From IMG/VR virus record IMGVR_UViG_3300042294_003323, positions 1 through 34,861 of that record: a stretch of 34,861 nt of DNA; one strand, given 5' to 3'. Below, in pieces: positions 32 to 34,861 of the stretch. The position numbers were made by a program, and so were the translations under genes. The stretch comes from a virus. Every line of letters begins with the position of its first letter. The first letter of the stretch is position 1. The notes under the pieces are model-generated. The model ran no database searches and had not been told where the DNA came from. It saw only the letters and a list, made by a program, of their open reading frames with translations.

Positions 32-206
32 CCTGCTGGTCGCTGGGTTGCTGTTGACAATCGAAACGGGCTTTGCCACATTTAAGCCTCGACGTCTCCG
101 CGAGGTGTCTAAATGCACTCGCGACCCGCTCCGACTCTCATGCTGTTCGCAGCAATGCTTTCCATTCTCTGCGTGGGTTGTACCCCGGAGGATGCTGCAG
201 GGTTAA
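12..206 (+). CDS. Possible small membrane protein (TTG start)
   Basis: This 64-residue frame starts with TTG just after an AAAAAAGG stretch that could serve as a ribosome-binding site. It opens with a hydrophobic segment (about residues 2-17), followed by a basic region. It fills the space between the VRR-NUC stop and the next ATG at 113, but its last 94 bases overlap the well-supported gene at 113 in another frame. The Cys- and Arg-rich C-terminal half looks like a shadow translation. If real, it would be a small inner-membrane protein of the putative lysis block. No family recognised. Confidence 0.25.
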   Translation: MLSLFVCLLVAGLLLTIETGFATFKPRRLREVSKCTRDPLRLSCCSQQCFPFSAWVVPRRMLQG

Positions 207-517
207 AAATTGACTTCAGTCAATTGAACTGGCAGACCGGTGTGATCATCGCTCTTGCCTTGCTCGTCAATCCCGGAAAGATCGTCAGCGGTTTGACGGA
301 TCAACTTGGAAAGATTCCAGCCGTCGAAAAAATTCTCCGCATACTGGGAGTGATATCGTCGAAAGACACGAGCCCGGGAACACTCACCCAGGCTGAAACA
401 CTTGAGCTGTTGGTCGGCATCGTCAACAGATTGCCACCGTCTCCGATCAGAGACAAGATTGCCGCGTTCCTCAGCGAGGTCGCAACGCAGCCGGAGGTGA
501 AGCCAGATGCCAAATGA
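113..517 (+). CDS. Small secreted or lipoprotein-like membrane protein
   Basis: 134 residues. The N-terminus has a basic start, a hydrophobic core and Cys at residue 23 in the context LCVGC, which resembles a lipoprotein signal, although Cys at -3 is unusual. A second hydrophobic stretch lies around residues 43-55, and the C-terminus is helical and charged. The start is supported by GAGGTG six bases upstream of ATG. It overlaps the next gene by 11 bases. Its place just upstream of a peptidase and the terminase matches the lysis cassette position in lambda, so an envelope role such as outer spanin or holin is possible. No family assigned. Confidence 0.7.
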   Translation: MHSRPAPTLMLFAAMLSILCVGCTPEDAAGLKIDFSQLNWQTGVIIALALLVNPGKIVSGLTDQLGKIPAVEKILRILGVISSKDTSPGTLTQAETLELLVGIVNRLPPSPIRDKIAAFLSEVATQPEVKPDAK

Positions 518-875
518 GAAGCAATCCGGGAGCCTGCTCCCGATTATCCTGATCATCGGTGCGATCTGGTTTTTTACTCAGCAAGGTTCAGCGCCAAAAC
601 CAGTACAGCCTGATCCGATCAAGCCGACGCCAGACCTGATCAGCGTCAAGCCATCGGCGGAACAGGCGTGGGAGGCGTTCGCCGTAGCCGTCGAATCAAA
701 GATGCTCGGCGGAACCATGCAGCAGCACACGGACCACCTGCTCAAGATTGCAGACACTCTCAAAGATGCCGGCACGCTCACGGACATCTCCCGCGTCGAT
801 GAATGGCGAGCCAAAAGAATCGACATTACCGACGCCAATCGGGCCGAGATAGCGAAGAAACTGAGGGGCAAATGA
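507..875 (+). CDS. N-terminally anchored membrane protein, possibly spanin-like
   Basis: 122 residues. A short polar start is followed by one transmembrane helix (about residues 10-25), a Pro-rich linker (about 29-50) and a soluble alpha-helical domain rich in Glu, Lys and Asp. The shape is one membrane anchor with a large outside domain, as in inner-membrane spanins, but no family is recognised. The stop codon overlaps the ATG of the peptidase gene (ATGA, 872-875), so the two are translationally coupled. A role in lysis or virion assembly is inference from position. Confidence 0.72.
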   Translation: MPNEKQSGSLLPIILIIGAIWFFTQQGSAPKPVQPDPIKPTPDLISVKPSAEQAWEAFAVAVESKMLGGTMQQHTDHLLKIADTLKDAGTLTDISRVDEWRAKRIDITDANRAEIAKKLRGK

Positions 876-1849
876 GCGAGGAATACTTTGCCTCTGGCTG
901 TTTGCTGGATCCGGGCCAGCGAGACGCCGCAGTCGTGGACCTGATCGCCGCTGGCCGTCAGCCCATCTGCGCGGACAATGCCAGCATCAAAGGAACCTGG
1001 CAACGACTCAAGGCTCGCGGTGTTCAAGCAGTCCTGATGCCGCATCTCATGTTCAAATACTTTCCCGGACGCCGTAACGATTTTCAGCGAGCCAGCAGAC
1101 CGCCACGATCCGACGACGATCACGGGACGTGCGTTTCTCGCGGAACGTATCGCGCGTGCATGTTGAGCATGTTGCGACAGATCGACGAAAAACAAATCGT
1201 CGGCAAACCTGTCGTTCTCTCATACGAATTTGTTTACGGCTACGGACGAACCGTGATCGGCCGCAGCCAGCTCGGCAACGGCGGCGGAATGTTCGGCAGC
1301 ATGGCGGCGAAAACCGTGAGCCTGTTGGGAATCCCAGCGCGGGCGAAATACCCTAGCGCAGATCTGAGCGAGGATAACCCATTCGGCCAGCCGGCTCTGG
1401 CTCGCAAGTGGGGAACGGATCGTAAAGGACCGCCGCAGGATGTTATCGACGCCGCCAAGGGACACACGTTCGACGCTCACCTCGCCAATACTTCGGAGGA
1501 AGCCGCCGACGCTTTGGCTGCTGGCTTTGCCGCTGCGTTCTCCCGATCATGGGCGACGACTGGCCGACGAGACCAGAACGGAATGGTGAAGCCAACGCCG
1601 TCGGCACACTGTGAAACTCTCTGCGGAATCTTTCAAGCTCACAATGGTGAAGACGGATACCTCCACTGGCAGAGCTGGGGAGATAACACGCCCGGCGGCC
1701 CGAACGTATTAAAGCTCCGCGACGGTTCAACATACGAACTTCCAATCGGATGCTCCGGCGTTTATCGGTCAGACATGGACAAGGCTTTCCGAAGTGGAGA
1801 CGCCGAGTCTTGGCACTTCGAACTCAGAGAGGGGAGCCAGTGGCGATGA
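872..1849 (+). CDS. Papain-like cysteine peptidase, candidate endolysin or virion lysin
   Basis: 325 residues. Motifs fit a papain-type (clan CA) cysteine peptidase: GTC at Cys87 in a Gly-Thr-Cys-Val-Ser context, a His at residue 226 followed by Cys, and a WQSWG motif (about 246-250) resembling the N-S-W-G loop of papains, with Gln where Asn is usual. The ATG at 872 is chosen over the upstream frame because GAGGGG precedes it and it overlaps the previous stop (ATGA). It probably cleaves cell-wall or surface peptide bonds at lysis or entry. The substrate is unknown, and a transglutaminase-like or CHAP-like fold is an alternative. Confidence 0.7.
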   Translation: MSEEYFASGCLLDPGQRDAAVVDLIAAGRQPICADNASIKGTWQRLKARGVQAVLMPHLMFKYFPGRRNDFQRASRPPRSDDDHGTCVSRGTYRACMLSMLRQIDEKQIVGKPVVLSYEFVYGYGRTVIGRSQLGNGGGMFGSMAAKTVSLLGIPARAKYPSADLSEDNPFGQPALARKWGTDRKGPPQDVIDAAKGHTFDAHLANTSEEAADALAAGFAAAFSRSWATTGRRDQNGMVKPTPSAHCETLCGIFQAHNGEDGYLHWQSWGDNTPGGPNVLKLRDGSTYELPIGCSGVYRSDMDKAFRSGDAESWHFELREGSQWR

Positions 1850-2874
1850 ACATCCTCGCACTGATCTTGATTATCGACGCCGGTATTCTGGCGTCGATGG
1901 ATGGTCCGGATCTCCCGGACGCATTCAGGCGACCTGAGACCTCCGTGGTCGTTGAGCCAGAAACACTGCCAAGACAGGTTCCGGCCACGGAGGAACCTAC
2001 GCCATTGATTCACTGGGAGACCTCGGCGGCGGCCAGTGGACTCGTAAAGGCGACAGCAAAAATCACTGATCGTTGGCTAGTTTCTGAGGACTGGTGCGCA
2101 AACTGCCCCGCCGCAAAAGCTCGGTTCAAAGCATCCGGCGGAAAAGATGAAAACATCATAACGATCGCTGAGGCATTGGAACTTCACGGAAAACAAATTC
2201 GTGGAGTCCCTCACGAGTACAGCGTCCAGACAGAACGCGAAATCCTGCAACCTCCATCGTATCGCGAAGCCGAGAAAATGGAGGTCGAACTCGACGGCAG
2301 GAACAAGCCGACGAAGTCGGCAATTCTCAACCATCTTCGAAACGGCAAACCACATCAGGGAAAACACTGGCAGGCGTGGTATCTTGAATCGTGGGACGCA
2401 GAGCAACTTTACGCACTGCATGACGACGACCATTTCGACCGAGTCCCGACGTTTGAGAATGATACCGTCAGCGCTATTGTGTCGAATGCTGTGGCCTCGC
2501 CGGAGGTCGTTGCTGGAATCCTCGCCGCACACCTTTTGCGACGTGGACACGTCACGGAGGATCAGGCTGTTCTCGGCCTGTTCGAAATCGACGTCGACGC
2601 TCCGGACAGCGCGCGGAAGTGGGCCGCGGACTTGCTGAAAAATCAAAGCGTTGAGTTTCCGTCTGTCGGTGTGTCAGCATCATGGAAGGGAAGTGATCGC
2701 CAGATCTCAGTCACCCCGGGCCGACTTCAGATAAAGCCCGGGGCGACTGTTTCCGTCAAAAAATTCGGTGTGTTACTCTCGACGACACTCCGAGGCGTTT
2801 CATTTGCTGACGATCTTTCATGGGCGACGCTGGAACTTGACGGAGCCCCAGACCTCACCGTGAGGTTCCAATGA
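1846..2874 (+). CDS. Membrane-anchored or secreted thioredoxin-like protein
   Basis: 342 residues. The N-terminal hydrophobic helix (about residues 2-16) looks like a signal peptide or anchor, followed by a Pro-rich linker. A WCANC motif (Trp83, Cys84, Cys87) and a downstream GVP segment, which could supply the cis-proline, suggest a thioredoxin fold. The rest contains an alpha-helical middle and a beta-rich C-terminus of unknown type. The start overlaps the peptidase stop (ATGA). A disulfide role in the envelope is suggested by the redox motif and by the Cys-rich tail protein encoded later, but this is inference. CxxC could instead bind metal. Confidence 0.65.
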   Translation: MNILALILIIDAGILASMDGPDLPDAFRRPETSVVVEPETLPRQVPATEEPTPLIHWETSAAASGLVKATAKITDRWLVSEDWCANCPAAKARFKASGGKDENIITIAEALELHGKQIRGVPHEYSVQTEREILQPPSYREAEKMEVELDGRNKPTKSAILNHLRNGKPHQGKHWQAWYLESWDAEQLYALHDDDHFDRVPTFENDTVSAIVSNAVASPEVVAGILAAHLLRRGHVTEDQAVLGLFEIDVDAPDSARKWAADLLKNQSVEFPSVGVSASWKGSDRQISVTPGRLQIKPGATVSVKKFGVLLSTTLRGVSFADDLSWATLELDGAPDLTVRFQ

Positions 2875-3176
2875 CCACCGAAACAGATTACGAGTCCGCC
2901 GCCATGGCTCGGTTCATGTCGGACGGTGTTATGCTGGCCGATGGGATCGATCCAGCAAACGAAAGAAAATCGAACCGCCGAGAAAAAACGATCAAGTCGG
3001 CGAGCAAATCATTTTATCGAGTGATGAACTCGGAGAACCCGCCAAAATCTCGCGAGGAAGCGGCACGCCGAGCACTTGGATTTCTGGGCCTGTTCTTTGC
3101 GTCGATGTTTCCGCAGTATTCTCTGGCAATCAAGGTAGCCTTTTTTCTGTGGGACGTATTCCACCAGGGGAAATGA
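2871..3176 (+). CDS. Small protein with hydrophobic C-terminus
   Basis: 101 residues. A charged N-terminal half is followed by a hydrophobic C-terminal region (about residues 68-98) that could form one or two membrane helices. The ATG overlaps the preceding stop (ATGA) and the stop lies two bases before the terminase small subunit. A tail-anchored membrane protein or a holin-like protein fits the position, but no family is recognised. Confidence 0.65.
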   Translation: MTTETDYESAAMARFMSDGVMLADGIDPANERKSNRREKTIKSASKSFYRVMNSENPPKSREEAARRALGFLGLFFASMFPQYSLAIKVAFFLWDVFHQGK

Positions 3177-3177
3177 C

Positions 3178-3609
3178 ATGGACCTCGGCGACGAGTGCCC
3201 CCCGTGGGTAGCCGAGGAAGGGCGCGAGATTTGGCAAGACACGTTACTCGAACTGAAAAGTCGCGACATGCTGGGCCGAGCCAGCCGCGTTCAGGTCGCC
3301 ACGTATTGCCAAACGTGGGCACAATACGCCGCCGCAACGGCAGCACTGACAAAAGACGGCGAACTCAATATGTCCGTCAACAAGTACGACAAAGAAGGGA
3401 ACGTGATCGGAGAGGAATTGAGTCCATGGTACAAGGTCCAGCAAGACGCCGAGGCGAAACTGAGACGGTACTGGAGCGACTGGAGACTACTCCCGAAGGA
3501 CGTGAGGATCGTACCAGATGATGGCCATCGACGAGGGGCAGCTCGATTGCTGGAGTCACTACAGCGAGCAGGAAAGGCAGACGCTGCTGGATCTGCTCGC
3601 GCGAGCTGA
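3178..3609 (+). CDS. Terminase small subunit, P27-family-like
   Basis: 143 residues. The order of features matches P27-type small terminases: an N-terminal Pro-Pro-Trp segment, a helix-rich DNA-binding region around residues 20-55, the TKDGE...DKEGN linker, the SPWYK helix and a C-terminal LLPKDVR segment. The protein recognises the packaging site and recruits the large subunit. Its last 92 bases overlap the start of the large-subunit gene in another frame, which is long for such an overlap but common in phages. Confidence 0.78.
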   Translation: MDLGDECPPWVAEEGREIWQDTLLELKSRDMLGRASRVQVATYCQTWAQYAAATAALTKDGELNMSVNKYDKEGNVIGEELSPWYKVQQDAEAKLRRYWSDWRLLPKDVRIVPDDGHRRGAARLLESLQRAGKADAAGSARAS

Positions 3610-5770
3610 TTACGATCCCGACCGCGTTGAGCAGGTCGCCACAGACGCCGAACTCGAACTACTCAGGCGATCGAATCAGGAAACGCAGCACGCCCCGGAA
3701 CACGATCACGAAGCGAACCTTTCCGCCTACGAGCGACACAAGGCCGACGCTGCGAAACGATCACGAGCCAAGTCAAAGGCCGGCCGCGATATCGGCCCGA
3801 TTCCTCCGGTGACGGATCCGGAGAAACGCAAGGCGTGCGAGGCGAGCCTACAGACGTTTCTCGAGACGGTGTTTCCTCATGCGTTTCGGCTGGGCTGGTG
3901 TGACGATCACCTCATACTCATTAGCGAACTGCAAAAGGTGATTGAGTCCGGAGGGTTTCGAGCAATCGGAATGCCGCGAGGAACTGGCAAAAGCACTATC
4001 GTTATGCGGGCAATGTTGTGGGCAGTCTGTCGAAGGCTCCACAGTTACGCGATCTTGACGGCTGCAAACTCTGGCAAGGCCGAAAAACTGCTGAGAGACC
4101 TCAGCGTCGAACTGACCCACAACGAAATTCTGCTCCAGCTTTTTCCCGAGGTCGCGTTTCCATTCGTTGCACTAGAGGGAGTCGCTAACCGAGCGCGTGG
4201 CCAACTGTTCCGAGGCGAATCGACGAACATCGCGACCAACAATAAAACGCTCTGCTTTGCCACGTTGAAGGGATACCCCGGGACCGGTGCAATTATTGGC
4301 GCGGCGGGATTGCTCGAGGCAGTCCGCGGAGCCCTTCACACCCTCCCAGACGGCCGCGTGATTCGCCCGTCGATGCTGCTTTGCGACGACTTCCAGACGC
4401 GCGAGTCTGCCATGTCGCCGCTTCAATGCCACAACCGCAACGAGGTTATACAGAACGACCTCGTCGGAATGGCTGGACCGGATTCCGCGTTCTGTGCTCT
4501 CGTGACGTGTACGGTCATTAGGAAGGACGACGCCGCCGACAGACTGCTGACCCCCGACCTCCACCCAGACTGGTGCGGACTGCGCCGGAAGTTCCTGCGA
4601 TCGATGCCGAACGAGGAAGCCATGAGGCTCTGGAGCCAGTACGCCGAAATTCGAGCCAACAGCCTGCGAACTCACGGCGACATCAGAGACGCGACGAAAT
4701 ACTACGTGGCCAACCGTGCCGCGATGGACTCCGGAGCCGAGGCGAGCTGGGAGGCACGTTTCGCCGCCGACCGTGGCGAGGTGTCTGCGATCCAGCACGC
4801 CATGGAATGGTACTACCGCAGCCGCTCGGGATTTTTCAGCGAACTGCAGAACGAGCCAGAGGACGACAGCAAATCAGGCCGGACGTGGTTGTCCGCCTCC
4901 GACCTCGCCACAGATCGCAACATTCAGTGCGCCCGCGGTGTGATCCCTCGAGGCTATACGCATCTCGTGGCAGACTGCGACGTCCAGGGCTCTTTGCTGT
5001 ATTACACGGTCGCAGCATTCAAGCAGGACGGTTCGGGCCATGTGATTCGATACGGTACCTGGCCGGAGCAGGAAGACCCATATTTCACGCTCAGAGAGGC
5101 TCGCAAGACTCTGAACAGGAAATACCCCAGACGCGGAGACATGGCCGCACTCTCTCAAGGGATCACGGATCTTGCCGACTGGCTGTTCGAACAGGAATGG
5201 AAAACCGAGGACGGCGACGATATGCCGCTGCTCGCCGCTGCTTTCGATGCTCGCTGGCAGACGACGCTGGTCCGTGAGGCTCTCCGCAGATCCCAGCACG
5301 CGAAACGCCTGCTCGCCTACTTCGGGCAATCCTACCGAGCCGCAGACAAGCCGATTCAGGAAAGAAAATTCGACGCCGGCTCCCGTGTCGGTTTGGGCTG
5401 GGTGATGCCGAAACGGAAAACGGTCTCCGACGTCAAGACGCTGACAGTCGACGTGAACTTTTGGAAAACGAATCTCCACGATCAGCTCGCCATCAGGATC
5501 GGACACCCGGGAGCCGTGACGCTCTACGACGGAAAACATCGAATGTACGCCGAGCATTTAACGGCGGAGTTCGCCACTCAGACGGAAGGCAGAGGCCGGA
5601 CTGTGATGGAATGGCGACTCAGGCCCGGGGCTGAGAATCACTGGCTCGACACAACGACAGGCTGTCTCGTTCTCGGCTCCGTGATGGGCTGCAACGTCCC
5701 TGAGATCTCGGACGCTGTCGAACGGAAACGCAAACGCAAACCCCGCAGAAAGACGGAACTCAAAACATGA
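3518..5770 (+). CDS. Terminase large subunit (ATPase and nuclease)
   Basis: 750 residues. The motor cuts concatemeric DNA and drives it into the prohead using ATP. The Walker A motif GMPRGTGKST is at about residues 151-160, and the Walker B-like SMLLCDD at about 285-291. The VADCDVQ segment near residue 487 resembles the first acidic motif of lambda GpA-type nucleases. The protein has a long charged N-terminus and a Lys/Arg-rich C-terminal tail. Two adjacent ATGs at 3518 and 3521 follow GAGGA at a usual distance; the first is given. The length is slightly above lambda gpA (641). Confidence 0.93.
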   Translation: MMAIDEGQLDCWSHYSEQERQTLLDLLARADYDPDRVEQVATDAELELLRRSNQETQHAPEHDHEANLSAYERHKADAAKRSRAKSKAGRDIGPIPPVTDPEKRKACEASLQTFLETVFPHAFRLGWCDDHLILISELQKVIESGGFRAIGMPRGTGKSTIVMRAMLWAVCRRLHSYAILTAANSGKAEKLLRDLSVELTHNEILLQLFPEVAFPFVALEGVANRARGQLFRGESTNIATNNKTLCFATLKGYPGTGAIIGAAGLLEAVRGALHTLPDGRVIRPSMLLCDDFQTRESAMSPLQCHNRNEVIQNDLVGMAGPDSAFCALVTCTVIRKDDAADRLLTPDLHPDWCGLRRKFLRSMPNEEAMRLWSQYAEIRANSLRTHGDIRDATKYYVANRAAMDSGAEASWEARFAADRGEVSAIQHAMEWYYRSRSGFFSELQNEPEDDSKSGRTWLSASDLATDRNIQCARGVIPRGYTHLVADCDVQGSLLYYTVAAFKQDGSGHVIRYGTWPEQEDPYFTLREARKTLNRKYPRRGDMAALSQGITDLADWLFEQEWKTEDGDDMPLLAAAFDARWQTTLVREALRRSQHAKRLLAYFGQSYRAADKPIQERKFDAGSRVGLGWVMPKRKTVSDVKTLTVDVNFWKTNLHDQLAIRIGHPGAVTLYDGKHRMYAEHLTAEFATQTEGRGRTVMEWRLRPGAENHWLDTTTGCLVLGSVMGCNVPEISDAVERKRKRKPRRKTELKT

Positions 5771-6054
5771 GCACACAGGCGAAACCAAAGAAGACAGGCC
5801 GACCACAGGGAGCAGCGACCGCTGACAGAGATCTCGTCGACGTTCCGGCCAGCCGTTGTGCTCGCTGTGGATGCACTGACCGAGCAACATACAACGATTG
5901 CAAACGAATTCCGGGGCAGGGACATGACCCCAGCGGCAAGCCATATACGGCGGTCATTTTGAGGCCGACAAAATGCCTGAACCCAAAATGCGGACAGCAT
6001 CGCGTCGATAGAACATGGGAATATGTCGCCAATGAAACAGGCGAAACCAATTAA
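5767..6054 (+). CDS. Small zinc-ribbon protein
   Basis: 95 residues. Four-cysteine zinc ribbon: CARC near residue 31 with a following Cys, and CLNPKC near residue 70. The N-terminus is Lys/Arg-rich. The ATG overlaps the terminase stop (ATGA). Similar zinc-ribbon proteins occur next to terminase and portal genes in planctomycete and environmental phages. A DNA-binding role in packaging is plausible but not shown. Confidence 0.75.
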   Translation: MSTQAKPKKTGRPQGAATADRDLVDVPASRCARCGCTDRATYNDCKRIPGQGHDPSGKPYTAVILRPTKCLNPKCGQHRVDRTWEYVANETGETN

Positions 6055-6095
6055 CGCGATTCAGTTTCGCCTCGGCATCCCGCAACCTGCAACAT

Positions 6096-6296
6096 ATGGC
6101 AACGGAAACGACGCTCGACAAGATCAATCGACTTCGCGCACTGCTGGAAAGCGGTGTCACGTCGTCGTCAGTCGACGGGGAAACCACCTCGTTCGATCTT
6201 GCTTCAGTGCGTCGTGAACTGATCAGGCTGGAGCGAGAGTACGGCACCAGAGCGAAGCGCAGCCGCGTTATCACCCCAATGATGGGGAGACGCTGA
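6096..6296 (+). CDS. Head-tail joining protein gpW-like
   Basis: 66 residues, the size of lambda gpW (68). It has the same plan: an N-terminal helix with Leu-Asp-Lys-Ile, a short beta segment around VDGETTSF, and a second helix SVRRELIRLEREYG. gpW binds the portal after packaging and prepares the head for tail attachment. The last base of its stop codon is the first base of the portal ATG (TGATG), exactly the W-B order of lambda. No strong ribosome-binding site is seen before this ATG. Confidence 0.82.
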   Translation: MATETTLDKINRLRALLESGVTSSSVDGETTSFDLASVRRELIRLEREYGTRAKRSRVITPMMGRR

Positions 6297-7786
6297 TGAG
6301 CACCGTTAACGCACCTACAGGCGACCAGACATATCAAGCGCTGAACCCGAAGAACCGCCGCAGGGCATCGACCCGCCGCGTCGTTCTCGAGGATCGCCTC
6401 TTGACTGATCGCCGCAGAGAGGCTCTGTCGGCTAACGCTCTCGACGTTTGGCGGAATATGGGCCTGATGGCCTGGGCGATTCGCAGAACTCTCGACTATT
6501 GTTGCCTCTGGGACTTCCAGCCCAGAACGAAAGACCGTGGACTCAATGACGCTTTGAAACAATTGATGGCGCGGGACACGGAACCCGAGGCAATCGACTA
6601 TTACGGCCGAATGGACTGGGACGATATGCGTCGAGTCGCCGAGGCTCAGAAGTTACTGTCCGGCGATTGTTTTTTTGTGAAGATGGCCGATGGTACTCTT
6701 CAGATGATTGAGGGTTCCTACTGCAATAGCCCGACCACCGCACGAAACAAGGCCGAGACATGGGTCAACGGTGCAAAGCTCAAGAATGGCCGCGTCGTCG
6801 CGTGGAATTTCTCGCAGGAGGATCCCATCACCGGCCAGCGTTCGGACAAGTCGGTTCGTCAGTCGTCCGTGTGGCAACACTGCCAATTCGAAGGGCGACC
6901 GAACCAGATACGGCCGCAGTCTCCGATAGTCGCCGCAATCAATGAATTTCGCGACCTCGACGAAACGTTCGACCATATGCGGGCAAAGGTCAAACTCGAC
7001 CAGCTTTTCGGAATTGCCTTCACACGAGCGGCAGACGCCGAGGGATTCGACGAGGACGATCCAGCAGCGTCGGACGTTCAGGAGGGCTCCGCCCGCGTCG
7101 TGGACTTTGGAGACGGCCCAGCCGTTTTTGATCTCGACGAAGGCGAGGGGGTCACACCGGTACAGAGTCAGAACCCAGCATCATCAACGCAGGAATTTTT
7201 GAAACTGTGCGCTCAGGTTGCTCTGAAGTCGCTTGATCTGCCATACAACTTTTTTGACGAGGCCCACACCAATTTTTTCGGAAGTCGTGCCGCGTGGTTG
7301 CTGTTCGAGCGGGCTTGTTATGCTCGCCGCAAAACGCAGGACCGACTCCATCGGAAAATGACGGTCTCCCGTTTCTGGCGATGGGCGTTGCCTGTCGACA
7401 TGGGCGGAACCGGGGAAATAACACTCCCAAACTCAATGCAGATTCAGGACGTCCCTTTCCGCTGGGTTCCTCGAGGCGTCGCGTGGTGGAAACCACAGGA
7501 AGAACTCGACACGGCTCTCAGATCGGTCGCCGCCGGCCTCAAATCAATGCAGGACGTTTGCGACGAGCACGGTTTCGGAGACTATCTGGACAACGTCCGC
7601 GAGATCCACGGCGAACGTGAGGAACTTGCGAGCCTCGGTTATGTCCAGAAGTGGAGCCAACAGGCGATGGTATACCTCGCCGACATTGACGACATGAGCG
7701 AACAACCGGCGACGGGTGGCGAGTCGCAACCCTATTCCGAAGACGAGCCGGAGGTTCCGGTCGATCCAGCCCCAGACGAAAGTTAA
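6296..7786 (+). CDS. Portal protein, lambda family (gpB-like)
   Basis: 496 residues, close to lambda gpB (533). The dodecameric portal forms the DNA channel at one capsid vertex. Supporting features are the position after gpW, the N-terminal helix region (residues 38-60), the AEAQKLLSGDCFFVKM segment typical of the portal wing, and the DLPYNFF...NFFGSRAAWL segment that corresponds to the conserved clip/stem region. An acidic, Pro-rich tail ends the protein. Confidence 0.9.
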   Translation: MSTVNAPTGDQTYQALNPKNRRRASTRRVVLEDRLLTDRRREALSANALDVWRNMGLMAWAIRRTLDYCCLWDFQPRTKDRGLNDALKQLMARDTEPEAIDYYGRMDWDDMRRVAEAQKLLSGDCFFVKMADGTLQMIEGSYCNSPTTARNKAETWVNGAKLKNGRVVAWNFSQEDPITGQRSDKSVRQSSVWQHCQFEGRPNQIRPQSPIVAAINEFRDLDETFDHMRAKVKLDQLFGIAFTRAADAEGFDEDDPAASDVQEGSARVVDFGDGPAVFDLDEGEGVTPVQSQNPASSTQEFLKLCAQVALKSLDLPYNFFDEAHTNFFGSRAAWLLFERACYARRKTQDRLHRKMTVSRFWRWALPVDMGGTGEITLPNSMQIQDVPFRWVPRGVAWWKPQEELDTALRSVAAGLKSMQDVCDEHGFGDYLDNVREIHGEREELASLGYVQKWSQQAMVYLADIDDMSEQPATGGESQPYSEDEPEVPVDPAPDES

Positions 7787-7798
7787 GGAACTCGAATC

Positions 7799-8104
7799 AT
7801 GACTAACATGCTCGATCTGATCGAAGCAATTCAAAACATTAGCCCGGCGATTTCGCAGGCCGCCGTTGTCGCCGCACTGACCGACAATTCCGGCGGAGCC
7901 TCCGCGGACGGCACGATCGGAGCCGTCACAACGTTTACGCCGAGCGTCGCGTGGAATGGCTCGTCGGTTTATCCCAGCGCCGCAGACGCAACCGCTATTG
8001 CCGCTGCAATCACTGCACTGATGGCCGCAGTCAAGGAACTGTCGACAAAACAAAACGCTGTGATAGCATCGCTGAAGGCTGCCGGAGTGATGGCCAGCTC
8101 ATAA
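7799..8104 (+). CDS. Small Ala-rich head protein (unassigned)
   Basis: 101 residues. An N-terminal helix (MLDLIEAIQ) is followed by a Ser/Thr/Gly-rich middle and a C-terminal helix ending in a KAAGVM motif. Proteins of this size and composition between portal and capsid genes may be head fibre or decoration proteins, but the sequence does not identify it as lambda gpD. AAGGAA lies eight to ten bases before the ATG. Confidence 0.65.
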   Translation: MTNMLDLIEAIQNISPAISQAAVVAALTDNSGGASADGTIGAVTTFTPSVAWNGSSVYPSAADATAIAAAITALMAAVKELSTKQNAVIASLKAAGVMASS

Positions 8105-8156
8105 CGGCCGCAGATCATTTATCGCGTTCAGTTTTTCGAATCACCGGAAGCAAGTC

Positions 8157-9269
8157 ATGCCAGCAATTACAACCGCACCGAAAAACGGCCTCTTTCGAAC
8201 TCAAACGACCAACGCACCCCCGGTGCGAGTCGACCGAGCCGCTCGAGTCGTTTTCGGCTGTGCTCTCATGCAGGCTGGAGATTTGAATCCGGGCGATTCG
8301 AGAAACTGGACCGTTACGCCGGAAACGCTGTTTCAGGCGCACGAACTCGGCAGCCGTGGAAACAACGGGCTCAAGGCGCGATTCACTCACCCGAATATGT
8401 CGTCGGACGGAATGGGTTCATACCTAGGCCGCTGGAAAAATCTCAGAATTGACGGTGACACTTTAAGAGCCGATCTGCACATCGCCGACGCCGCCTTCAC
8501 TTCACCGCAGGGGGATCTGGGAACGTATGTCATGGAAATGGCAGACAGCGAACCGGATATGTTCGGTGTCAGTTTGGCCACCGAACTCGACATGGAAAGC
8601 CTCGCTCAATTCGAGCAGGAACGTGACATCAGCGGCGACGGCTCGGCTCGCTGGGAAATGAAATTCACAGCAGTGCGGGCCGGAGACGTCGTCGACGAGC
8701 CAGCCGCAACCCGCGGCGGAATGTTCGACTTGTTAACGGTCGATCAACGAAACCTGCCAGCTCAGGCTACTGCGCTGCTTCAAACATACTTTGGCGATGC
8801 GGAACCTGCCGTGGTCCGTTCCCGTATCGACGGATTTCTGGACCGCTATTTCAGCAACAAAGGGGCAACCATGCCGGAACAAACGACCTCGCCAGTCGAG
8901 GAAACAACGCCAACCACTGAGACGCCAACCGAGCAACCGACGACGCCTACCCCGACGACCACAGAACCGCCGGCCAACGAGTTCGGCAGCGTCGATCTCG
9001 GAGAGTATATGAGCACGTTCGGTGATGCCGACGGCGCTCGAATGTTCCGCGATCGGGTTCCGTTTCAAACGGCACTCGTTCAGCATCTCGCGAAACTCCG
9101 CGGCACCATTCAGGATCTTTCCGCAGAGAACGCTCAGATCAAGGCACGTTCCGCAGAACTGGCAAAAACGATGCACGGAGAGACCGAGCCGGTAAACGTC
9201 GGCCAGGGCGAGAAAAAGAAGTCACTGTCCGAGGCTTTCCGCCGGGGATCAAACCCGAAACAACGCTGA
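8157..9269 (+). CDS. Prohead protease fused to scaffold domain
   Basis: 370 residues. The N-terminal ~200 residues look like a prohead serine protease of the assemblin type: FTHP with His78 and GVSL with Ser139 are the probable catalytic pair, between them the YLGRW...LRADLHI core. A Pro/Thr-rich linker (about 240-275) leads to a charged coiled-coil C-terminus that should act as scaffold. The layout matches lambda C-Nu3. The protease processes capsid components and itself during maturation. Confidence 0.85.
   Translation: MPAITTAPKNGLFRTQTTNAPPVRVDRAARVVFGCALMQAGDLNPGDSRNWTVTPETLFQAHELGSRGNNGLKARFTHPNMSSDGMGSYLGRWKNLRIDGDTLRADLHIADAAFTSPQGDLGTYVMEMADSEPDMFGVSLATELDMESLAQFEQERDISGDGSARWEMKFTAVRAGDVVDEPAATRGGMFDLLTVDQRNLPAQATALLQTYFGDAEPAVVRSRIDGFLDRYFSNKGATMPEQTTSPVEETTPTTETPTEQPTTPTPTTTEPPANEFGSVDLGEYMSTFGDADGARMFRDRVPFQTALVQHLAKLRGTIQDLSAENAQIKARSAELAKTMHGETEPVNVGQGEKKKSLSEAFRRGSNPKQR
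8871..9269 (+). CDS. Nested scaffold protein (internal in-frame start, Nu3-like)
   Basis: An ATG at 8871 lies in frame inside the protease gene, preceded by AAAGGGG at a good distance. It would give a 132-residue protein made only of the Pro/Thr linker and the helical C-terminal domain. Lambda Nu3 is made in the same way from the 3' end of gene C. Separate translation would supply many scaffold copies per protease. It is a prediction from the RBS and family precedent. Confidence 0.6.
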   Translation: MPEQTTSPVEETTPTTETPTEQPTTPTPTTTEPPANEFGSVDLGEYMSTFGDADGARMFRDRVPFQTALVQHLAKLRGTIQDLSAENAQIKARSAELAKTMHGETEPVNVGQGEKKKSLSEAFRRGSNPKQR

Positions 9270-9311
9270 GCCGCCAGAACCGCGGCAACGAATCACCTTT
9301 GTCTCCGTGAT

Positions 9312-9350
9312 GGGAGACCCGGATAAGGACGACGGTCCCCGGGTTCTCCC
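9312..9350 (+). promoter_or_regulatory. Strong hairpin between scaffold and capsid genes
   Basis: GGGAGACCCGG (9312-9322) pairs with CCGGGTTCTCCC (9339-9350) with one bulged base. A T-run (9361-9365) follows about ten bases later. It lies in the 140-base gap before the capsid ATG. It could be a partial terminator, an mRNA-stabilising 3' or 5' structure, or a processing site that sets capsid level. Confidence 0.6.
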
Positions 9351-9409
9351 TCAACGAGAGTTTTTGTTTGACGAAATCCATCACGGGGGATCGAAAAGGA
9401 ATCCTCCAA

Positions 9410-10378
9410 ATGGCTGATACTCTGACGACGCTGGCCGAGCTGGTGCTGTTCAACAGCGCCGACGTGAATCCAGCCGAAATGACCAACATTCTAAACGGTG
9501 CTCCGGTGCTGTCGGCATTGCACGCGATGCCATCCAGCAACGGCACACTGCACAAGTACAACATCGAAACCGGCGCACCGGTCGTCGGGTTCCGTGCTGT
9601 GAACGACGGAGCCGATTACACGGCCGGCAGCAGCACTCAGACCAGCGTCACGCTGAAATACCTCGACGCCAAGGTGATCGAGGACGCCGCAGAATGCGGA
9701 GCCTACAAGGGCGGGGCCGAGGCGTGGATGGACCACCGCACTAGCCGCGTTCTGCGTCAGGCGTTGTACGTCTACGAAAAACAGGTCTGGTATGGGACCG
9801 TTCACGGTAGCTCGGACGGATTCGCAGGTTTGGCGAATGATGCCAACTACAACGGCAGCGGCGACGCTCTCGTCGTTGATGCTGGCGGCACGACCGCCGG
9901 AACTGGTTCCTCAGTCTGGTTGCTGTGCTCGACTCCAGACGACGCCGCGTTCGCTCTTGTTGGTGCTGGTGATCCAGCGATTAATGGCGGGAACAATATC
10001 AACTTCACAATCAGCGAAACGTTTCGCTCGATGGTTCTCGGAGCCAACTCCAAGAGCATGACGGCACTTTGCCGCGATGCTGGGGCGCATTTGGGCATTC
10101 AAGTCGGCAGCAAATACGCTTGCGTGCGAATTGCCAACCTGACAGCAGACAGCGGCAAGGGTCTGACTGACGCACTGTTGGAGGATGCAATGGCCTTGTT
10201 CCCGTCGTCAATGCAGCCGACTGTGATCGCCATGAGCCGCCGCAGCCGAAAGCAGCTCCGCAAGAGCCGAACGACCTACAGCCCGACCGGTATGCCAGCA
10301 CCGAACCCGATCGAGTTCGACGGTGTTCCGATTTTCGTAACGGACAGCATCATCGACACCGAGACGCTGTTGGCGTAG
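9410..10378 (+). CDS. Major capsid protein
   Basis: 322 residues, following the protease/scaffold gene, in the position of lambda E. Pattern support: a hydrophilic N-terminal helix, the TGAPVVGFRAVN...SVTLKYLDAKV beta region, the long helix ALYVYEKQVWYGT, and the C-terminal EFDGVPIFVTDSIIDTE segment typical of HK97-like capsid proteins (P-domain end). ATG 9410 is preferred over an upstream TTG because AAAAGGAA precedes it. Confidence 0.85.
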   Translation: MADTLTTLAELVLFNSADVNPAEMTNILNGAPVLSALHAMPSSNGTLHKYNIETGAPVVGFRAVNDGADYTAGSSTQTSVTLKYLDAKVIEDAAECGAYKGGAEAWMDHRTSRVLRQALYVYEKQVWYGTVHGSSDGFAGLANDANYNGSGDALVVDAGGTTAGTGSSVWLLCSTPDDAAFALVGAGDPAINGGNNINFTISETFRSMVLGANSKSMTALCRDAGAHLGIQVGSKYACVRIANLTADSGKGLTDALLEDAMALFPSSMQPTVIAMSRRSRKQLRKSRTTYSPTGMPAPNPIEFDGVPIFVTDSIIDTETLLA

Positions 10379-31769: not shown

Positions 31770-32009
31770 CTAAACTCCTTCTATCGAATCCGTTTCATCC
31801 TCAAAGGCTTCCGTGATCTCTCCGGCCAGCCACTTGTGGACCTCTCCAGTGTTCACCATTCGAAACTCTGCGCCATAGTACGGCCGTTGAGTTCCTCCGA
31901 GTGGTTTCCAGTGCAGACGGCGGGCATCCGTGGCCGCCATCAGTCTCCGCACTGGAACGCCGAATCTTTCGGCCGCCGCAGTCATTGCGACCCAATCATC
32001 CGTGATCAT
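31770..32009 (-). CDS. Excisionase-like / HTH DNA-binding protein
   Basis: 79 residues. The N-terminal half (WVAMTAAAERFGVPVRRLMAA) matches MerR/excisionase-type helix-turn-helix starts, and a later GEVHKWLAGE could be the wing. Size and closeness to the integrase suggest the recombination directionality factor. The ATG overlaps the CsrA stop (ATGA), so both are made together. Confidence 0.6.
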   Translation of the reverse strand: MITDDWVAMTAAAERFGVPVRRLMAATDARRLHWKPLGGTQRPYYGAEFRMVNTGEVHKWLAGEITEAFEDETDSIEGV

Positions 32010-32191
32010 GCTTCAACCGTTGCGAGTTCATCCCGCAGAATGGATTTGTCCCGAGGTGCTGAAATCCGCACGCGAACGTATCCGCCGCGAACCTCGACCA
32101 CATGGACTTTGATGCAACCATCGATGGTGATCGATTCGCCCTTTTTACGCTTCAACGTAAGGCAACCGATTTCGCTTCCTGTTTTGCTCAC
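32006..32191 (-). CDS. csrA: CsrA homologue (RNA-binding translational regulator)
   Basis: 61 residues, the usual CsrA size. LTLKRKKGESITIDGCIKV, split by the GES turn, HVVEVRGGYVRVRISAPRD and SILRDEL match CsrA from end to end, with the conserved RNA-binding Arg at residue 53. CsrA dimers bind GGA motifs in mRNA leaders and block or stabilise translation. The GTG at 32191 is chosen because GGAGAG lies six bases upstream; an in-frame ATG at 32203 is the alternative. Phage copies could redirect host CsrA targets or control the phage's own early mRNA. Confidence 0.82.
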   Translation of the reverse strand: MSKTGSEIGCLTLKRKKGESITIDGCIKVHVVEVRGGYVRVRISAPRDKSILRDELATVEA

Positions 32192-32208
32192 TGGTCTCTC
32201 CATGACAA

Positions 32209-32278
32209 CCGTTTTCGAAAACGGCCAGCGGCGATGGTTTCGACGTCTCCGACAAAGCGGAACTCCATCGCCGCTGGC
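32209..32278 (-). promoter_or_regulatory. Structured leader of the csrA gene
   Basis: A 16-bp perfect palindrome CCGTTTTCGAAAACGG (32209-32224) and a 14-bp inverted repeat, GCCAGCGGCGATGG at 32224-32237 with its exact complement at 32265-32278. The 27-base loop contains a TCGGAGAC sequence on the transcript. The structure lies just upstream of the csrA ribosome-binding site. Confidence 0.65.
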
Positions 32279-32306
32279 TGGCTGTGGCCACAATGGCCGC
32301 GCCCCT

Positions 32307-32393
32307 TCATCCCTTGAATATGTTTGCCTCGATTGCTCCAGCCGCAAAGATGCCGACGAGCACGACACAGAACAAGGCGAGCAGCTCAGACAT
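32307..32393 (-). CDS. 28-residue membrane peptide
   Basis: M-S-E-L-L-A, then a hydrophobic helix to about residue 21, then a short tail (IEANIFKG). GAGGTG lies four bases before the ATG. It fills part of the gap between the integrase and csrA genes. Size makes it uncertain, but the site and topology are good. Confidence 0.5.
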   Translation of the reverse strand: MSELLALFCVVLVGIFAAGAIEANIFKG

Positions 32394-32423
32394 GAGCCAC
32401 CTCACAGCCTAGCCCGTTAGCCT

Positions 32424-33722
32424 CTACCAGATTGGCAGCGTTTCGAGATTTGCCACTATTGCACGAAGTGGGCGATACGCTTGGAGGTAATGCTCCCGAG
32501 TGATCGCCGACACTGCTCCGTCCGTTACTGAATGCTTCAGCAGATAGGAGGCCGCCGACTCGTCGACATGATCCGCCCACATTGAGGCGCACCCTTTGCG
32601 AAAGCTCGCCACCGACTTCTGGCCGAGGCTCAGTTTTATCACTGGCTTTCGCGCTGCAATTCGGCTCGAATCGTCCAGCCCAGCCCTCTCCAGAATACCA
32701 GTCCATTCGCGTGACCAGTACCGGCTGTTGGAGGCAAGCGGAAAAACTCGCTCCGAATCCAGCCCCCGAAACAGTTCGATCAGAGACCGCAAACGGGAGG
32801 GAATTGGAACCAGCAGCTTGACTGGTTTCGCGGCTCGCTGAGATTTCTTTTTTGTCTTGTGAACAAGATACCACAGCCAGCCGTGCGGATTGTGGAGGTC
32901 GTCGAGTTTTGGGCACTGCGTTTCGTCGACGATATCCGCCCACAGGAGACCGGCTTTGTCGTTCGTGCGAGCCGGGAACCAGTCCTGAGACCGAAACCCG
33001 AACACGAAGTGCGACAGCAGGACGCATTCCCAGAACTGTGCTGGCGAAACATTCCCGATTCGAGGCCACTGGCAGCCGTTCAACACATCCGGCCTCATCA
33101 GTTTCGCGAACTCGTCTAGCGTTACGGGCTCGCCCTGAAAATCCGAGTTGTCCGTGCTCGCCGGCCTCATCATGTTCACGTCGCCGCGACAAGGCGACTT
33201 TGGAACCTTTGCTATCAGTCCAGCCTCGGCCGACCACCTCAGGAGTTTCATGATCGCATTGAGTGCCTGACCGCAGGAAGCCGAGGAACAACCCTTGTCT
33301 TGCGTTCTCAGGTGCCTCGCATAGTCCCAAAGAATATCTTTCGTTTCCGTGATTTGCTGCAGCGGATGAGTTTTGCTGCGGTGCTCCAGCCACGCCTGGA
33401 ACTTCACAATTCTCTGAATGTCCGCCCTGACAGTCTTCAACTCGTTCTGAAGCAATTCCTTCGGCTCCAGATTGGTTCTGTAAAGCTCGACCAATGACAC
33501 AGGTTCCGAGCGCAGAGGCGAAACGACTGAGCTGGTCAGCGAGTCGCTGACAGTCACGACAGGTGCAATGTCCGGAGCTGATGAGGGAGTGAAAACGAAC
33601 TGAGCTGGAGCCACATTCATAGGCCCGATCCCCCTGGGCATTTCGAATTGAACGACCACCCGGATCTCTATTGGTCGTCTTTGTTTCCGCACTTCGGTTC
33701 GCTGTTCGATCGGTGCAATCAT
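32424..33722 (-). CDS. int: Tyrosine-family integrase
   Basis: 432 residues. A core-binding SAM-like domain lies about 75-170. Catalytic domain: Arg244 in GFRSQDW, a Lys-rich beta hairpin near 289-293, the second box ASFRKG with Arg375 but without the usual His, His397 in LLKHS, and Tyr412 in REHYLQAY. It should recombine the tRNA-derived attP at 34393 with the host tRNA gene. Changes in the second box resemble divergent planctomycete integrases. AAGGA lies nine bases before ATG. Confidence 0.85.
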   Translation of the reverse strand: MIAPIEQRTEVRKQRRPIEIRVVVQFEMPRGIGPMNVAPAQFVFTPSSAPDIAPVVTVSDSLTSSVVSPLRSEPVSLVELYRTNLEPKELLQNELKTVRADIQRIVKFQAWLEHRSKTHPLQQITETKDILWDYARHLRTQDKGCSSASCGQALNAIMKLLRWSAEAGLIAKVPKSPCRGDVNMMRPASTDNSDFQGEPVTLDEFAKLMRPDVLNGCQWPRIGNVSPAQFWECVLLSHFVFGFRSQDWFPARTNDKAGLLWADIVDETQCPKLDDLHNPHGWLWYLVHKTKKKSQRAAKPVKLLVPIPSRLRSLIELFRGLDSERVFPLASNSRYWSREWTGILERAGLDDSSRIAARKPVIKLSLGQKSVASFRKGCASMWADHVDESAASYLLKHSVTDGAVSAITREHYLQAYRPLRAIVANLETLPIW

Positions 33723-34076
33723 CGTGGTCAGTCCTTAGACGACCCTCCGTGATCTCGTTTGAGATACATACAGAAACGACACGGCCTTTTTTTTGCCCTG
33801 CCATTCTGTCAACACAAGCGTCAATCGAAACAGCACCCTCAGAGGCGGATATTCCCGCATTCTGAGGAATCTGAGTGTTGCTCTGCGTTGAGCAACCACA
33901 ACATTCCGTGAGGCGTTCCATAAACATTCCCTGCCGATGGTTTGGTGAGTCAAACGAGGTCGACGGGCTTGGGTGCAAAAAAAGCCCGCCGACCATTCCT
34001 GATCAGCGGGCTTTGGGGGTCCGTTTATCCCTCACCAACCAATTAGGACGGCGGGGAGAGTAATATCACAGATCTG
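33723..34076. other. Gap between integrase and repressor genes
   Basis: 354 bases. It holds the repressor terminator (33976-34014), operator O2 and a probable leftward promoter (34060-34085). A frame starting ATG 33926 with AGGGA upstream reads toward and across the integrase in another frame, without a stop until 32386; it is not called as a gene. Confidence 0.5.
33976..34014 (-). terminator. Intrinsic terminator of the repressor gene
   Basis: On the leftward strand AAAGCCCGC (34014-34006) pairs perfectly with GCGGGCTTT (33989-33981) across a 16-base loop, and the T-run (33983-33977) follows at once. It should end repressor transcription and would also stop a transcript from the leftward promoter near 34060. 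Confidence 0.8.
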
Positions 34077-34085
34077 CTATGTCAA
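34057..34085 (-). promoter_or_regulatory. Leftward promoter PL with operator O2
   Basis: Leftward TTGACA at 34085-34080 is a perfect -35. The -10 is weak (TACTCT at 17 bases, or TATTAC at 14). The dyad CAGATCTG (34069-34076) lies between them, so a bound repressor would block RNA polymerase. Transcripts would run to the integrase through the terminator at 33976. Confidence 0.45.
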
Positions 34086-34337
34086 CATCACTGATCTGTG
34101 ATTTTTAGATTTCTTCGGCGACTCACCAAAAATCAACTCTTTCACGTCTATTTGCAGCATTTCGGCTATTCGTTCGCATCGACTTAGCGTCACGTCCTCA
34201 CCGCCATTCAACAAACGACTGACGGCCGATTGCTTTGTTCCAAGTAGATCAGCGAGGTCGGATTGAGTTAATCCCCGCTCTTGGCGTATTCTTTCAAGGT
34301 TTTCGCAGAATCGATTCATGATGGAAGATGATGCCAT
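34077..34337 (-). CDS. XRE-family repressor
   Basis: 86 residues. The helix-turn-helix lies about residues 24-43 (LTQSDLADLLGTKQSAVSRLL), followed by a dimerisation helix ERIAEMLQIDVKELIFGE. GAGGGG lies six bases before the ATG. It should maintain lysogeny by binding the dyads at both sides of its own gene. There is no peptidase domain, so induction would not be by LexA-like self-cleavage. Confidence 0.82.
   Translation of the reverse strand: MASSSIMNRFCENLERIRQERGLTQSDLADLLGTKQSAVSRLLNGGEDVTLSRCERIAEMLQIDVKELIFGESPKKSKNHRSVMLT
34087..34102. promoter_or_regulatory. Operator O3
   Basis: ATCACTGATCTGTGAT, symmetric at seven of eight paired positions, inside the last codons of the repressor gene and two bases from the leftward -35. 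It closely matches O1 and O2. Confidence 0.6.
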
Positions 34338-34349
34338 GAGTCGCCCCTC

Positions 34350-34378
34350 TTGTCAATATTACAGATCTGTGATAAGGT
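34350..34378 (+). promoter_or_regulatory. Rightward promoter PR with operator O1
   Basis: TTGTCA at 34350-34355 (five of six -35 bases) and a weak -10 (TAAGGT at 17 bases, or GATAAG at 15). The dyad ATTACAGATCTGTGAT (34358-34373) fills the spacer. It points at the VRR-NUC gene and late operon and also overlaps the repressor's own upstream region. Confidence 0.5.
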
Positions 34379-34392
34379 CAGCACGTAACAAA

Positions 34393-34439
34393 TGGGGCCG
34401 CAGGGACTTGAACCCTGAACCAACGGATTATGAGTCCGC
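34393..34439 (-). other. attP core: 3' half of a CAU-anticodon tRNA gene
   Basis: On the leftward strand the sequence holds a complete anticodon arm (GCGGA-CTCATAA-TCCGT), a T arm (CAGGG-TTCAAGT-CCCTG), the acceptor 3' strand CGGCCCC and discriminator A, but no D arm or 5' acceptor strand nearby. This is the usual form of a phage attachment site: the tRNA 3' half restores the host gene after integration. The tRNA is Met or Ile2 (CAU). CCA is not encoded. Confidence 0.85.
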
Positions 34440-34457
34440 TCACACGAGGCTGGACGG

Positions 34458-34835
34458 ATGGAAAAGCTGAGCGAGGCGGCGTTTCAAAAACAGGTCATAG
34501 ATCTGGCTCACCTTCATCGCTGGCGAGTCGCTCATTTCAGGCCAGCTCGGACGACTGTCGCCGGCAGGGAGACCTGGCGGACTGCAGTGTCTGCCGATGG
34601 TGCTGGCTTCCCCGATCTAGTCCTCGCCAGAAACGGTGTCGTTCTGTTTCGCGAACTCAAGAGCGACAAAGGCAAAGCGTCGGCGGATCAACTCGCTTGG
34701 CTTCTGGCCGTCGGTGGTGAAATCTGGCGGCCGTCCGACTGGGAAAGAATCGCACGGGAAATTCGCGAACTCGGCGCACCCCCTCAAGGTACTTTCCGCC
34801 AACCTGCGTCTGCCCATACCACTGGGAACAGCTAA
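34458..34835 (+). CDS. VRR-NUC domain nuclease
   Basis: 125 residues. EAAFQKQVIDLAHLHRWRV, GFPDLVLARNGVVLFRELKSDKG and ADQLAWLLAVGGEIW match the VRR-NUC branch of PD-(D/E)xK nucleases. The metal-binding residues are Asp in FPDL, Glu and Lys in RELK. Stand-alone VRR-NUC proteins occur in many phages and probably resolve branched DNA during replication or packaging. It is the first gene of the rightward operon and starts 19 bases from attP. Confidence 0.85.
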   Translation: MEKLSEAAFQKQVIDLAHLHRWRVAHFRPARTTVAGRETWRTAVSADGAGFPDLVLARNGVVLFRELKSDKGKASADQLAWLLAVGGEIWRPSDWERIAREIRELGAPPQGTFRQPASAHTTGNS

Positions 34836-34861
34836 AAAAGGTTGCTGAGTTTGTTTGTTTG
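34831..34861. repeat. Terminal direct repeat, right copy (circular contig overlap)
   Basis: Exact copy of bases 1-31. Collapsing the two copies gives a circle of about 34,830 bp. A genuine packaged terminal repeat cannot be excluded from sequence alone, but 31 bp is short for that. Confidence 0.9.

Follow-up and report, generated by a model that had tools for sequence, protein, structure and literature searches.

A tRNA-Met(CAT) 3' part as the very probable attachment site of a putative Planctomycetota phage, with a promoter-like element on the late-gene side

Phages and genomic islands that insert into tRNA genes by means of a tyrosine integrase carry the 3' part of the tRNA in their attachment site (attP), which restores the gene. 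In ICEclc, the promoter Pcirc reportedly acts on intB13 in the circular form only. This promoter is listed for intB13 (PMC2892462). In Tn916, circularisation is required before Porf7 can drive the conjugation genes across the joined ends; while the element is integrated, these genes have no promoter (PMC11658703). Mycobacteriophage BPs is known for integration-dependent immunity, in which attP lies inside the repressor gene and integration alters the repressor protein (PMC4557955), and late-gene expression waits for an excision event in helper-embedded phage-inducible chromosomal islands (PICIs; PMC10111431). The circular virus record IMGVR_UViG_3300042294_003323 (the window, 34,861 nucleotides analysed at full length) holds a tRNA 3' half between a repressor region and a set of rightward genes, namely a VRR-NUC-like nuclease gene and, after it, the late operon. 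A reading of these data from the sequence alone (the sequence-only reading) proposed that integration at this half cuts the late genes from their promoter; if the late genes were wired through attP in this way, the phage would turn to lysis by the very act of excision, which few phages are built to do.

The evidence instead favours standard tRNA integration with a self-sufficient late operon, and the arrangement looks largely ordinary. The locus is probably an ordinary tRNA-integrating module of temperate Planctomycetota phages, in which the late operon keeps a promoter-like element of its own at 54-82. It resembles other tRNA-integrating phages and islands in its 48-bp tRNA 3' part, its nearby integrase and the tRNA that would be restored at the integrase end; nothing essential differs, except that attP lies between the repressor and the rightward operon and not directly beside the integrase. 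As in Tn916, a promoter at one end could, judging from the sequence, read across the joined attachment site into genes of the other end in the circle only, whereas the late operon of the window has its own promoter-like element, and a lack of promoter may apply to VRR-NUC alone. The likeness to ICEclc is that excision would bring a gene of one end under the control of a promoter from the opposite end, but there it is the integrase gene that is switched, and in the window phage it would be at most VRR-NUC. The position of attP lets integration alter regulation in BPs, as it might here, but the attP of the window (34393-34440) is outside the repressor gene (34077-34337). Helper-embedded PICIs, in which a late gene waits for excision, would be alike in that respect and differ in that the phage's own integration would be involved in the window phage.

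The attP core is very probably the tRNA half. The 48 bp at 34393-34440 on the minus strand are identical to bases 27-74 of a complete 74-nt tRNA-Met(CAT) (L087:4207-4280) in a Planctomycetota metagenome-assembled genome, which confirms the half proposed at 34393-34439 and extends it to 34440. The half begins with the anticodon stem and ends at the discriminator base, a span that fits restoration of the gene on recombination and thus supports its role as the integration site, and the crossover is probably in the anticodon-loop segment at 34428-34434. ARAGORN predicted no intact tRNA anywhere in the window, which agrees with the presence of a half, and an exact search for the half in viral contigs gave no match. 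Related tRNAs are present in 169 of the 170 genomes of the order carrying tRNA-Met(CAT), and the tRNA together with the relatives described below indicates that the virus is probably one of Planctomycetota. The assembled genome with the complete tRNA (contig CAMAVB010000395.1, 8.2 Mb) is labelled Candidatus Kuenenia stuttgartiensis and groups with large planctomycete genomes, which makes its label or binning doubtful.

The position of the half is also conserved. On one side of it lies the immunity region, with the repressor, operators and integrase reading leftward, and on the other lie VRR-NUC and the late operon, reading rightward; since the record is circular, VRR-NUC leads into the late genes from position 113 onward. 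The related contig L003 keeps the order of integrase, repressor, tRNA half, VRR-NUC and late genes, with an integrase 84% and a VRR-NUC 88% identical to those of the window, and carries another tRNA-CAT half in the corresponding position, which further argues for the half as the integration site. The two halves share the anticodon-arm core CTCATAATCCGTTGGTTC and differ in the T-arm and acceptor, with the T-arm still complementary, while the repressor and operators are different. The segment of difference, covering repressor, operators and tRNA half, is 34077-34440 in the window and 4240-4614 in L003, between the integrase and VRR-NUC at 84-88% identity. The pattern suggests that immunity and attachment specificity were swapped jointly or at neighbouring places.

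Relatives of the terminase were found in 60 of 392 Planctomycetota genomes, and three prophages (G007, G159 and G367) were mapped. All three are bounded by tRNA 3' parts of 48-51 bp, which again supports the half as the integration site. The prophage of G007 has 48-bp repeats of tRNA-Phe, with the repressor and integrase at the restored-tRNA end and the lysis and terminase genes at the other, while that of G367 has 51-bp repeats of tRNA-Asp adjoining a lipoprotein gene, a repressor, a terminator and a relative of the window integrase. In these two of the three prophages, lipoprotein, repressor and integrase genes come after the restored tRNA and are read the same way as it, and this order, apart from the lipoprotein gene, is the one predicted for the window phage integrated at its half. 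The genome G159 contains two tandem identical prophages with a 48-bp tRNA-Met(CAT) attachment site and a period of 36,168 bp (G159:C1:190781-270780, L157-L160), and the inner junction of this tandem recreates an attP-like order within the chromosome. Most of the terminase-bearing regions (G527, G443, G204, G515, G501 and others) had no resolvable attachment repeat. The comparison documents a tRNA-repressor-terminator-integrase module in planctomycete phages, a group that has received little study.

Another sequence had to be weighed as the attachment core. The 31 bp at 34831-34861 on the plus strand are repeated at 1-31, and in L003 they form one contiguous copy at the same junction. Contigs from three further metagenomes (L007, L008 and L009) begin at the same base of this sequence as the window, and the four contigs do so though the similarity to L003 continues further left, a pattern expected at an attachment branch in assemblies. 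A virion end would give the same pattern, and the 31-bp repeat is possibly such an end (cos or a short terminal repeat) and hence a candidate packaging end. Moreover, a 24-base part of it is absent, allowing up to two mismatches, from the 170 genomes of the order carrying the tRNA, while the tRNA half matches exactly and the prophages of relatives have halves of the same kind at their boundaries; it is therefore very unlikely that the repeat and not the half is the attachment core. A mixture of the window phage and L003 as the cause of contigs beginning at the 31-mer was ruled out, for the identity runs further left. The 31-bp sequence sits between VRR-NUC and the open reading frame (ORF) at 113, and continues without a break into both flanks in L003, whose sequence matches L009 at every position for 3849 bp.

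Promoter-like sites were ranked with a sigma-70 weight matrix at every position of the circular genome on both strands (69,988 scored positions), since a simple consensus scan had picked up the repressor promoter and no other. Among rightward sites, the highest score (11.4) belongs to TTGACA-17-CACATT at 54-82 (+), a candidate late promoter right of attP and VRR-NUC and immediately before the ORF at 113, with the same site and score in L003. It lies in a conserved non-coding block at 45-109 (+), which also holds the ribosome-binding site of that ORF and is approximately 95% identical between the window and L003, against a mean of 81%; only 1.7-3.2% of 55-bp intervals reach that value. The site is kept within the block in L003, L008 and L009. 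The claim that integration cuts the late genes from their promoter was thus not borne out, as the top rightward promoter-like site is on the late-gene side of attP. The sequence-only reading would fall with a rightward promoter at 34440-34458 or inside VRR-NUC; the site at 54-82 comes near to this condition, being on the late side of the tRNA half, but it follows VRR-NUC and does not precede it or lie in it.

The events suggested by this arrangement are as follows. The leftward tyrosine integrase would join the tRNA-Met(CAT) 3' part (34393-34440) to the tRNA gene of the host by recombination. One end of the prophage would then consist of the restored tRNA gene and, downstream of it in equal orientation, the repressor, terminator, integrase and early genes; at the opposite end, host DNA would precede VRR-NUC and the late operon. 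The proposed geometry holds to this extent, as the polarity of attP keeps the repressor and integrase side with the restored tRNA and places VRR-NUC and the late genes at the opposite end. The promoter-like element at 54-82 would travel with the late operon, so integration is not expected to part the virion genes from their promoter, and late-gene silence in the lysogen would come from another cause, such as a weak -10 box that needs a phage factor. The loss would be confined to VRR-NUC and to whatever transcription reads through from the repressor region.

Several points weigh against this account. The site at 54-82 has a poor -10 box (CACATT), the matrices are those of Escherichia coli and may not describe the host, and the block at 45-109 could be conserved for packaging and not for transcription, as it directly adjoins the point where four contigs end. 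Not every relative keeps the module order, because the integrase of G159 is on the other side of the attachment site and reads towards it. In addition, a search with the integrase through the contigs of Genome Taxonomy Database (GTDB) genomes and through 170 and 392 Planctomycetota genomes found no prophage of the window phage and no close one, but only the distant integrase of G367.

Expression of the late genes might alternatively depend on circularisation, with a promoter left of attP (PR, 34350-34378, +) as the main rightward promoter, reading through attP into VRR-NUC and the late operon and being cut off by integration. The candidate PR, TTGTCA-17-TAAGGT, was missed by the simple consensus scan and scored 10.2 with the weight matrix, about 8th of all positions; the operator O1 and the -35-like hexamer proposed here are both present. 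Its 17-bp spacing and the operator in its spacer mirror the leftward site at 34085-34057, its +1 near 34385 would precede attP, and Tn916 offers a documented precedent for the logic (PMC11658703). Between 34440 and 34831 no good promoter-like site was found with the weight matrix (best 7.7, with a 15-bp spacer), so that VRR-NUC is the only gene that could depend on transcription across attP. Against such a circuit, the promoter-like site at 54-82, on the far side of attP, scores higher and is conserved, and the counterpart of PR in L003 is weaker (8.1 versus 10.2) and has no operator copy over it, the single operator copy of L003 near the repressor start overlapping the -10 box of the repressor promoter instead. 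In G007, the interval between repressor and attachment site holds a lipoprotein gene reading towards the repressor and nothing comparable to PR. Control of all late genes from PR is accordingly unlikely.

The preferred reading of a self-sufficient late operon could be refined if PR drove VRR-NUC alone across attP in the circle, the late operon used the site at 54-82 and the nuclease gene were left promoterless in the lysogen. VRR-NUC alone could still be uncoupled, because the site at 54-82 lies after it. The gene is under purifying selection, is placed between attP and the candidate late promoter without a better promoter of its own, and keeps its place in L003. Since PR is not clearly conserved in L003 and VRR-NUC could be expressed from the host side in the prophage, this refinement is put forward only tentatively, and it is rather doubtful. 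A further alternative, compatible with the self-sufficient late operon, is that O1 serves only autoregulation of the repressor, with no rightward promoter left of attP and VRR-NUC expressed otherwise. O1 overlaps a leftward -10-like TAATAT (34361-34356) and is itself upstream of the strong leftward TTGACA-17-CATCAT, and the operator copy of L003 likewise falls on the repressor promoter; the rank of PR within the top dozen sites of the genome speaks against it. This alternative is a possible one that falls well short of being probable.

In the window, no terminator-like fold was found between the tRNA half and the repressor, so host tRNA transcription could run into the repressor gene in the lysogen; the prophage of G367 differs in having a T-rich hairpin directly after the restored tRNA. 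Integration might in this manner part VRR-NUC from a repressor-controlled promoter across attP while putting the repressor directly downstream of the host tRNA-Met promoter, one event silencing the nuclease and reinforcing immunity, a combination considered improbable. The ATG of the repressor at 34337 is preceded by a ribosome-binding site (GAGGGG), but only transcripts begun further upstream, for example at the host tRNA promoter, could make use of it. The -10 box of the repressor promoter lies just past this annotated start, and with translation beginning at 34319 the mRNA would have almost no leader.

The VRR-NUC-like nuclease, predicted as the first rightward gene at 34458, is encoded at 34458-34835 (+), the only gene between attP and the site at 54-82. 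The assignment rests on a weak Pfam VRR-NUC match (E = 0.0038, and 0.00056 for the L003 copy, both below the Pfam cut-off) and a PHROG endonuclease match of 2.6e-9, and the substitution pattern is a purifying one. Relatives of VRR-NUC occur in 74 viral loci, and among the 62 best, only the L003 contig has a correctly oriented tRNA half just upstream; the gene pair is thus no diagnostic mark by itself. The first part of the late operon (113-10378, +) comprises the ORFs at 113, 507, 878, 1846 and 2871, presumed to be lysis-side, followed by the small and large terminase subunits, portal and major head protein.

The repressor (34077-34337, -) is an 86-aa Cro/C1-type helix-turn-helix protein (Pfam HTH_3, 1.4e-13), and its promoter, TTGACA-17-CATCAT at 34328-34356 (-), is the best promoter-like site of the genome and the best leftward one. 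The operators form a family of 16-bp palindromes comprising O1 (ATTACAGATCTGTGAT, 34358-34373), O2 (34065-34080) and O3 (34087-34102); the window has four matches to it, whereas shuffled sequence would be expected to give 0.11. O2 and O3 (34065-34102) overlap a leftward promoter-like site with TTGACA at 34085-34080 and TACTCT at 34062-34057.

An intrinsic terminator at 33975-34014 (-), with a folding energy of -26.3 kcal/mol, a z-score of -5.0 and a U-run, separates the repressor and O2/O3 from the integrase gene and has counterpart hairpins in L003 and the G367 prophage, which suggests that the integrase and early genes are controlled by termination or antitermination. The divergent tyrosine integrase of 432 aa (32424-33722, -), whose gene is about 670 bp from attP, gave no match in the Pfam search, a weak PHROG integrase match (E = 0.0022) and no tblastn match in phage and plasmid collections. 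Its gene has the codon-position pattern of a real one, and the protein is related to the integrase beside the tRNA-Asp attachment site of G367 (E = 2.7e-12). A 536-aa open frame at 32386-33996 (-) overlaps the entire integrase gene in another frame, as also in L003, and the portion that precedes the integrase (MERLTECCGCS...) is similar in protein sequence to that of L003. A CsrA-like protein is encoded at 32006-32368 (-) (Pfam CsrA, 4.8e-15), and csrA-like matches also occur in the prophages of G007 and G367.
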